From: Oligoflexia bacterium
Lineage (GTDB): Bacteria > Bdellovibrionota > UBA1018
Direction of reading: 5' to 3'
DNA: 59,325 bases
NCBI GenBank assembly: GCA_014376785.1
Contig: JACMQW010000096.1
Coordinates: 1 to 59,325 of the forward strand
In this document: positions 31,113 through 34,076 of the stretch, piece by piece
Layout of the letters: every line of letters starts with the position of its first letter
Position numbering within the stretch: the stretch's first letter is position 1
The notes under the pieces: model-generated
The model's database searches: none
What the model was told of the DNA's origin: nothing
The model's input: only the letters and a program-made list of their open reading frames with translations
Position numbers and translations under genes: made by a program

Positions 31113-32455
<1,343 letters not shown>

Positions 32456-32456
<1 letters not shown>

Positions 32457-32506
32457 AGCAGCGCTCAGCGCTCTCAGAGTTCTTCTTCCTTTAGACTCGG
32501 AAGAAG
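32456..32506 (+). other. Two hairpins between serS and tRNA-Ser
   Basis: The first pairs AGCGC (32460-32464) with GCGCT (32468-32472), extended by GAG/CTC around a bulge. The second is an 8-bp perfect stem, CTTCTTCC (32482-32489) with GGAAGAAG (32499-32506), ending 7 nt before the tRNA. No T run follows, so they are more likely RNA-processing or mRNA-stability structures than terminators. Confidence 0.4.
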
Positions 32507-32513
32507 CAGATGC

Positions 32514-32601
32514 GGAAAGGTGGCAGAGTGGTCTAATGCACCGGTTTTGAAAACCGGCGATGGGCAACCATCCGAGAGTTCGAATCTCTCCCTTTCCGCC
32601 A
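32514..32601 (+). tRNA. tRNA-Ser (anticodon UGA)
   Basis: An 88-nt class II tRNA including an encoded CCA. The acceptor stem is GGAAAGG (32514-32520) with CCTTTCC (32591-32597). The anticodon stem CCGGT/ACCGG encloses loop TTTGAAA with anticodon TGA at 32548-32550. The long variable arm pairs GATGG/CCATC, and the T loop is TTCGAAT. It lies directly downstream of serS. Confidence 0.97.
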
Positions 32602-32621
32602 CTTCTTTTCATACCGAATCC

Positions 32622-32734
32622 GCCATCACTCCCCAAAACTGCCAAAGTTGTTTCTTGTGGCCATCCCGGCCACCGCAACGACCGCGCATCCTGCGCGTGC
32701 GAGAAAATCTTTTGCAGTTTTGGGGAGTAATGGC
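32622..32734. repeat. Long inverted repeat enclosing two hairpins (three-way-junction element)
   Basis: Outer arms 32622-32642 and 32714-32734 pair over 20 of 21 positions, with one C/A mismatch. The 71-nt interior holds two perfect hairpins: GTGGCC-ATCCC-GGCCAC (32657-32673) and CGCGCA-TCC-TGCGCG (32683-32697). The whole could fold as a cloverleaf-like RNA or a DNA cruciform on either strand. No coding frame is credible. Family unknown. Confidence 0.6.
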
Positions 32735-32786
32735 CGTTGGGTAAAGAAGGGCGGATAGATTCGCCGAGCGTTTAGATGGAATCACC

Positions 32787-32815
32787 AGAAGTGGCGGAGA
32801 GGGAGAGATTCGAAC
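32787..32815 (-). pseudogene. Inverted fragment of the tRNA-Ser 3' end
   Basis: Read on the minus strand, 28 of 29 bases equal the 3' part of the tRNA-Ser gene plus 5 nt beyond the CCA (32578-32606). The copy holds the T loop, the 3' acceptor strand and the CCA. Upstream on the minus strand the 5' half is absent and the T stem does not pair, so it cannot be a working tRNA. The orientation is inverted, unlike the direct repeats left by tRNA-targeting integrases. Confidence 0.8.
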
Positions 32816-32818
32816 GAG

Positions 32819-32890
32819 AATTCACGGCCTCGTCGGATTCCGAAGGAGTCCGACGAGGTAGGACATGCAGGAGGCATGGCCTAGTGAATT
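32819..32890. repeat. Second nested-hairpin element next to the tRNA fragment
   Basis: Outer arms AATTCAC (32819-32825) and GTGAATT (32884-32890) enclose two hairpins. One is a 14-bp stem (32828-32841 with 32845-32858, one G-T pair, GAA loop). The other is a 5-bp stem CATGC/GCATG (32864-32878). Another 6-bp hairpin lies at 32750-32765. Together with the element at 32622 this makes the 326 bp between the tRNA and the next gene almost all paired sequence. Confidence 0.5.
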
Positions 32891-32927
32891 GTCGTTGGCG
32901 AGTCCGCAAATAAAAGATGGATAGTGT

Positions 32928-34076
32928 TCAAAAAGAACCTAGAAAAAGTTCGAGGTCGGAAATTTTTCTGCTGAGATTCGAAGCGTTCTCTCGATAGGTA
33001 TCGAGCACGCTGATTTGAATTTTTAAAAAAGCTTCCAAATTATAATCATTTCCCATTTGTGCTCTGTTGAAAAAAATAAACCGTCCATCTGGAAGCTTTA
33101 CAAAAGAGTCTGCGCCGCTGGTGGAACCCGGGTAATCATTTATCTCTAAGTTGTTTAAGCCATGGGCGGTGTGCAAAATGGGTAGGTCATTTTCAAGAAA
33201 GCGATGGAGCCATTTTAAACGACCTTTGGCGTTTTCAATAAGTTCGGATGCATTTTGCAGATGCATTGATTTTTCAGAGTCGATAGCGCTCTCAGTGGAA
33301 GCTAATTCTTCGGTGGCACGTTGAACAAATACTTTCGCCGGTAGGAGGACGCCTTCAGCTTCCTCCAATGTGTGTTGAGCATAGTAAGAGGTCCCTTCCA
33401 GGGATCCTCCCAGTCCCGGTGGTTGGAAGAAAATGATTCTTGCGTCTTGGCGCAGTTTTTCACCAGAAGATGTTTGGGAATCCTCAAACGCGTGGACTTG
33501 TCTAATATAGTGCATCCATTCGTGAGCGTTGGAGAGGTTCATTTTCTTTTCGTCGAGTAGCCCGTCCCAGGAGAGCCGCAGCAGCCCCTCTTTATGGCTC
33601 CAAGATGCTCCGTCCGTGAGGTGTTTCGAATCAAAGCAAACTTTTGCATTAAGCGGCCCGGTCTCCAATTTAACGGCCATCTTTAATATCCAAGACTTTC
33701 CCCGCAAGTACAGATTCCTTTGAAACACTGGCCTTCGCAGAATTTCATCCGGCTCAATAATGACCCGCCAAAAATCGCCGACTTGAGAAAGATAGGAATG
33801 AATTCCTATCGACTCCAAATAAGTTTGAGTGGCCTTAGATATGAGCTTTTGCTCGGCCAGAGTCATTGGTTCAGTGGGCCTTTCGTCAGGCAAAAGATCG
33901 CGGATGATAGTCGGCGAGCGTTTTTTAAACTCGCTCCATCTGAGCGAGTCCGCGGGATAGGCGTAGGAATGGGATATCGGAAGGGCAATTTCTTAAAGGA
34001 GTTTTAAACATTCTGCGCTTCCTAGTGCGGATGTAGAGAAGAACGGAAGCAGAATGAGAAATTGTCTGAACCGCAT
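32928..34076 (-). pseudogene. Putative exported zinc metallopeptidase-like protein, broken by an in-frame stop
   Basis: The main open part (TTG 33893 to 32928, 321 aa) has a HEWMH motif at about residue 124 (LSNAHEWMHYIRQ) and a TLEEAEGV segment about 50 residues later. This resembles a gluzincin HExxH...E site. It has no signal peptide, but the same frame continues upstream through 33 codons to a TAA (33993-33995). Beyond that it runs to ATG 34076, which encodes a good signal peptide (MRFRQFLILLPFFSTSALGSA). So the simplest reading is a 382-codon secreted protein interrupted by one nonsense codon. The family is not recognised. Stop-codon read-through or a sequence error are alternatives. Confidence 0.6.

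Follow-up and report, generated by a model that had tools for sequence, protein, structure and literature searches.

Among described systems, the closest to the element reported here is RtT RNA, encoded by rttR (RF00391) in the tyrosine tRNA operon of Escherichia coli, in which tandem units of 178 bp lie behind tRNA-Tyr and contain a 19-nt direct and a 10-nt inverted copy of tRNA sequence. The elements in the present study share with RtT the repeated units placed directly behind a tRNA, the direct copy of the tRNA 3' end with which the units end (AATCC to CCA in RtT), the short inverted copy of the T-arm, and the hairpins lying between these copies, whereas RtT lacks the long proximal palindrome and the core.

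Other systems show a more partial resemblance. REP, REPIN, and BIME sequences and MITE-like palindromes are short, non-coding, dispersed hairpins that often occur in inverted pairs; the similarity is a general one. The arms examined here vary by locus and copy the neighboring tRNA end, and no transposase is linked to them. Regarding MITE features, words of the inner arms are shared between copies, the outer arms are 42% identical, and no target duplication was apparent by eye. Quasipalindromes are perfected by template switching, in which one arm is copied from the other and the arms are made identical; they are isolated mutation hotspots, whereas a dispersed family with a common core at many sites is found here. 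CsrB-type sRNAs also carry hairpin loops of the CAGGA(U/A)G type, but each core of the present elements contains only two such hairpins, which lie on the antisense strand in most cases, and their binding by CsrA is putative. The sX4 sRNA model (RF02223) spans a tRNA-Ser and its downstream stretch. A few searches of open-access papers found no description of an element of this kind.

The present study concerns a stretch of 59,325 nucleotides from an Oligoflexia bacterium (contig JACMQW010000096.1), hereafter the window. G000 denotes the window's own genome, and G001, G003, G004, G009, G016, G023, and G030 those of relatives; L numbers denote individual loci, and R1 is a covariance model of the element. 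The sX4 model scored 40.7 bits at L117 (210-375) and 33 bits at L118 (3093-3264), in both cases over tRNA-Ser together with its trailer, against a gathering score of 70, mostly from the tRNA itself, and sX4 may partly be a model of tRNA-Ser.

Nested palindromes behind tRNA-Ser

The features of the locus are as follows.

31122-32456, + strand: serS, seryl-tRNA synthetase, the upstream neighbor (TIGR00414, 522 bits)
32514-32601, + strand: tRNA-Ser(UGA) with encoded CCA (ARAGORN; Rfam tRNA, 60.5 bits)
32578-32615, + strand: left outer arm, comprising the tRNA 3' end from the T-loop to CCA and 14 nt of trailer (inverted repeat I1)
32622-32652: left inner arm of the first three-way junction (inverted repeat I2; R1 match at 32616-32736, 29.6 bits)
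32657-32673: core hairpin a, loop ATCCC, GGGAT on the - strand (sequence, fold)
32683-32697: core hairpin b, CATCC, CAGGATG on the - strand (sequence, fold)
32704-32734: right inner arm of the first junction (I2)
32750-32765: small hairpin in the right half (sequence, fold)
32778-32815, - strand: right outer arm, an inverted copy of the tRNA-Ser 3' end that ends at the T-loop (I1)
32811-32898: second three-way junction, the distal core (fold -52.7 kcal/mol, z -8.1; inverted repeat I5)
32828-32858 and 32864-32878: hairpins of the distal core (the latter with a CAGGAGG loop on the + strand)
32928-33893, - strand: convergent open reading frame of 321 aa (ORF call)

The original prediction described a 113-nt three-way junction with more structure than expected by chance, and this description was borne out. 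The outer stem, 32622-32642 with 32714-32734, has 21 positions with one mismatch when read from the sequence, and both inner hairpins are perfect, with 6-bp stems each. The RNA fold of 32610-32746 has an energy of -70.2 kcal/mol, whereas shuffles averaged -37.4 (z -8.1), and none of 200 shuffles was as good. The inner arms extend the 21-position stem to 31 nt each at 87% complementarity. However, the prediction overlooked the repeat in which this junction is nested and the second junction at 32811-32898. The 113-nt junction lies inside a larger inverted repeat of 238 nt (DNA fold z -13.5), the arms of which, 32578-32615 and 32778-32815, are 87% complementary, and the symmetry of this large palindrome is broken by the hairpin at 32750-32765.

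The tRNA was the sole match in an Rfam scan of the window, and searches of Pfam and NCBIfam returned no family for the convergent reading frame. No intrinsic terminator, sought as a GC-rich stem with a T run, was found in 32300-33200. The adjoining position of serS and tRNA-Ser is shared by 17 of 24 serS loci, and the hairpin GCGCATCCTGCGC of core hairpin b is also present in the element behind a tRNA-Met (L053).

The right outer arm provides an indication of age. Its positions 32787-32815 are identical to the tRNA-Ser 3' end at 28 of 29 positions (E 5.7e-7), and it reads CTCTCC where the present tRNA-Ser has CTTTCC. The acceptor stems of the 16 other tRNA-Ser genes compared start with GGAGAGG or GGAGAGA, except for L027 (GGAAGGG), and none has the GGAAAGG of the window tRNA. 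Since the inverted copy has kept CTCTCC and none of these other tRNA-Ser genes carries GGAAAGG, this copy is probably older than the change in the acceptor stem. No direct copy of the tRNA-Ser 3' end remains in the window, and the distal module is without one. The window palindrome is, thus, probably old: its inverted copy preserves the earlier acceptor-stem sequence and the direct copy is gone.

Copies in the genome and association with tRNA 3' ends

A BLASTN search had been proposed as the check for a mobile repeat, of which several copies were expected; with the window element, it returned only its own copy in G000 and none in 39 relatives, which by that check speaks against a mobile repeat. 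A search for shared structure gave a different result. Behind the tRNAs of G000 (36 among the matches listed, 32 of which have enough downstream sequence for the stem count), three further long palindromes were found, at tRNA-Met (L053), tRNA-Thr (L063), and tRNA-Leu (L074). At L053, the end of the adjoining tRNA recurs in inverted form, whereas L074 and L109 have long stems with a different core. BLAST with the core of a G003 element found 26 places in G003 and no match in the other three genomes at E 0.001. R1 was built from an alignment (A4) of 22 of these 26 copies, with no other genome used, and recovered the window element at 29.6 bits (E 1e-4 in 104 kb) as well as L053 (42.8 bits) and L063 (41.9 bits); none of these three was in the training set. 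With more candidates scored, R1 found two more places in G000: C29, which follows a reading frame at a distance of 2 nt, and C81 (L343, 1501-1627), approximately 260 bp upstream of a frame that appears flagellin-like by eye from its first residues. G000, thus, has at least five such junctions, two of them away from tRNAs.

Under strict filters in 58 relatives, R1 found at least 33 distinct copies in G003 (42 rows, nine of which were the opposite strand of the same place), at least four in G016, at least two in G030, which belongs to another family of the same order, and at least one in G023. These counts are lower bounds because only the best 61-150 candidates were scored in whole genomes, and L053 and L063 were missed. 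Among the 33 listed G003 copies, 13 directly adjoin a tRNA and 20 lie elsewhere; the matches listed include six inverted pairs of copies approximately 240-300 bp apart, which have the same proximal-distal layout as the two cores behind tRNAs. A fresh copy measures approximately 150 bp, with arms of approximately 38-49 bp around a core of 50-65 nt containing two small hairpins, and the core stands in the opposite orientation at a tRNA-Pro (L237). R1 gave no match in G004 although similar structures are present there; therefore, the elements of different genera are joined into one family by their shape, their position, and short words in the loops. Behind a tRNA-Ser of G004 are two units in tandem, of approximately 350 and 373 bp, that both close with the tRNA 3' end in direct orientation and have a common core and arms that are largely unrelated between the units, but complementary within each; tandem units of approximately 345 bp follow a tRNA-Arg of G009. 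Among the three possibilities in the original prediction (a small RNA, a non-autonomous mobile element, and a transcription barrier), a dispersed non-autonomous repeat fits best in view of the R1 copies, despite the single copy by BLAST, and we interpret the window element as one decayed representative of a palindrome family that is dispersed and associated with tRNAs.

In G004, a contig ends no more than approximately 310 bp downstream of the tRNA in eight of 30 assembled cases (contigs C28, C30, C22, C34, C42, C44, C20, and C38), as expected of repeats that break an assembly, which suggests that the G004 assembly breaks at these repeats. A phage or plasmid origin was rejected, there being no match in viral contigs (exact G003-core pattern), plasmids (G003 element), or phages (window element).

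The association with tRNA ends was assessed in 110 of 157 assembled tRNAs from G000, G001, G003, and G004 that have at least 150 nt free of another tRNA, the sets of the latter three genomes being those among the matches listed. Copies of the tRNA end were counted at a score of 12 or more, and the tails compared with the downstream regions of other tRNAs served as controls. An inverted copy of the tRNA's own 3' end was found behind 19 of the 110 tRNAs against one of 660 controls (Fisher p 4e-16), and a direct copy behind eight against one of 660 (Fisher p 1e-6). The direct copies extend from the T-loop, or from close by, to CCA or a few bases farther, and a tandem-duplicated tRNA gene was rejected because the copied part extends from the T-loop to CCA and not over the whole gene. 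A long stem with a loop of 44-80 nt follows 22 of the 110 tRNAs (4 of 32 in G000, 1 of 27 in G001, 14 of 23 in G003, and 3 of 28 in G004) and none of 47 upstream regions; in three of the 22 (L088, L231, and L239), the stem is the tRNA arm itself without a proximal core. None of the 22 long-stem tRNAs has a simple terminator, in comparison with 35 of the 88 others (Fisher p 8e-5). The suggested transcription barrier is consequently possible on the basis of these counts, while the lack of a canonical terminator near the window element weighs against it. Simple hairpins flush with the tRNA were noted at L083, L017/L118, and L068, where the stem takes in the last bases of the tRNA (TCCA, CA), as if terminators, too, absorbed the tRNA end.

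Joint change of the two arms

The strongest evidence on the arms comes from one relative, G003. Two-sided changes were found in 31 of 33 arm pairs across 22 copies, and 94.0% of cells pair, against 71.4% when shuffled and at most 57.7% when slid. Pairs were counted in the 18 copies that are in register, the other four of the 22 being out of register in the alignment, with stems of their own that are long and nearly perfect. Among the resulting 594 arm pairs, 591 are Watson-Crick, three are mismatched, and none is G-U; for comparison, the acceptor stems of 150 tRNAs contain 21 G-U in 1050 pairs. Arm changes between copies were two-sided and one-sided at a ratio of 2239:46, as against 334:27 in acceptor stems, in counts that are not independent. 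What is expected of quasipalindrome copying was, thus, found in G003: the arms change together, almost without one-sided intermediates.

The same pattern is visible between L272 and L278, which hold the same element in different flanks: the four arm differences up to position 45 are two-sided without exception, and two beyond are one-sided. Arm pairing is at its maximum over the innermost 35-40 positions and is no better than chance past approximately 50. In five of 20 copies (L280, L281, L286, L287, and L290), inverted repeats reach 92-118 aligned positions, gaps allowed, and decay outward. At L290 (1300-1700), the inverted repeat takes in the final codons of the reading frame that lies upstream, and the mirrored codons lie where no frame of at least 90 aa was called.

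According to the original prediction, covariation would mean RNA. The covariation is very strong, yet nearly free of one-sided and G-U states, and the rule fails here because the near absence of these states points to arm copying. A selected RNA helix should leave G-U pairs and one-sided steps, which makes copying the simpler account. This comparison of aligned copies suggests that one arm is copied from the other and that selected RNA pairing is not the whole cause; selection for perfectly paired arms may contribute. Covariation is usually taken to prove a functional RNA; in this repeat family, the copying of arms accounts for it better, and a family of this kind would mislead tools that score covariation.

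Proposed origin and rival explanations

As the best overall explanation, and one that we consider reasonably probable, the window element is a decayed copy of a dispersed palindrome family, the arms of which are recopied and the hairpin of which replaces the terminator of the tRNA. We infer that the arms stay complementary since one is recopied from the other. For example, DNA polymerase would stall at the core hairpin, switch template within the strand onto its own new strand, copy the near flank outward, and then return, by which the arms would be kept equal. Where copying ran past the trailer, the tRNA 3' end would be placed inverted in the far arm, next to the core. At the distal core, folding back a second time would turn the inverted copy into a direct copy. 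The transcript would form a long hairpin standing in for the terminator of the tRNA, and the putative function of the element lies at gene 3' ends.

An account by selection alone, in which the element is a regulatory or 3'-end RNA, either a terminator or a processing hairpin, with arms kept paired by selection, draws on the missing simple terminators behind the 22 long-stem tRNAs and on the strong two-sided change of the arms. We regard it as unlikely considering the lack of any G-U among the 594 pairs, the inverted copy that competes with tRNA folding in the predicted fold, and the lack of a terminator-like site in 32300-33200; furthermore, the core occurs in both orientations, and its reversal at L237 speaks against the core having a fixed function as RNA. 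Integrases use T-loop sites, and a small cassette integrated at the tRNA T-loop by a site-specific tyrosine recombinase, with the direct repeats as attachment sites and the tandem units as repeated integrations, would account for direct copies that start at or near the T-loop and reach CCA or slightly past it and for the tandem units of G004 tRNA-Ser and G009 tRNA-Arg. Such a cassette is rather less likely still because inverted copies outnumber direct ones (19 against 8 of 110), 20 of the 33 listed G003 copies are not at tRNAs, and the locus-specific perfect arms are left unexplained by it.

The loops of the core may be viewed in another manner, as CsrA-binding hairpins of the form C-A(N)GGA(T/A/G)-G on one strand, with two per core for the CsrA dimer. 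The regions behind tRNAs contain 34 GGA-loop hairpins in 42 kb, in contrast to four in the remaining 58 kb of the window, while the average other trinucleotide reaches approximately one per genome in the same loop count; each of four genomes has one csrA gene, and the loops resemble the CsrB repeat motif CAGGA(U/A/C)G (PMC7652899). However, the GGA strand of the proximal core is mostly antisense to the tRNA, and several loops in G000 read ACGAT without GGA, for which reasons CsrA binding is kept only as a rival; GGA also ranks 6th of 64 in G000 alone, and we consider this reading improbable. The hairpin core, the dispersal, and the six inverted pairs in G003 would also suit a REP-type element moved by a RAYT (Y1) transposase. 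This identity was rejected as extremely improbable because the Y1 transposase is absent from G000 and G001, which both carry elements, and none of 12 Y1 loci examined in G003 and G004 has an element nearby.

The recopying of arms may be extended, tentatively and with doubt, to a class of self-templating palindromes in which the core makes the polymerase copy its flanks and thereby capture gene ends, with E. coli RtT as one fossil of a widespread process. If this were true, arms would be rewritten at every site, tRNA 3' halves would be captured in inverted and then in direct form, and the process behind RtT would be widespread beyond enterobacteria. The elements described here also provide RtT, so far a curiosity of a single locus, with candidate relatives at numerous tRNAs of a different phylum, and they make it testable by strain comparisons how tRNA-end repeats arise.

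RtT works like the distal module of the present elements and may be related to it. A unit of this type, closed by the 3' end of its tRNA in direct orientation, is found behind the eight of 110 tRNAs noted above and is lacking in the window itself. In terms of family membership, the best score of the RtT model was 28.2 bits at L118, below the gathering score of 45, the window gave no match, and none of 144 Bdellovibrionota genomes searched with strict filters had a hit above the cut-off. Plain sequence similarity of rttR to the regions downstream of tRNAs was not significant alone: the best score among 136 regions was 33, and 2720 shuffled comparisons reached as much as 32. The word AGCGAGAGAGCG of rttR is common to three regions, L088, L231, and L097. 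The match at L118, the element behind a tRNA-Ser of G009, covers all 130 positions of the model on the right strand, with an E value of 0.085 for the nine loci scanned and 0.0016 for that stretch alone. The model and L118 share GGAUGAGAA, GGUUCGA, and CCCGA-AGGGCGAGG, and the closing stem of the aligned stretch again sets an inverted against a direct T-arm.
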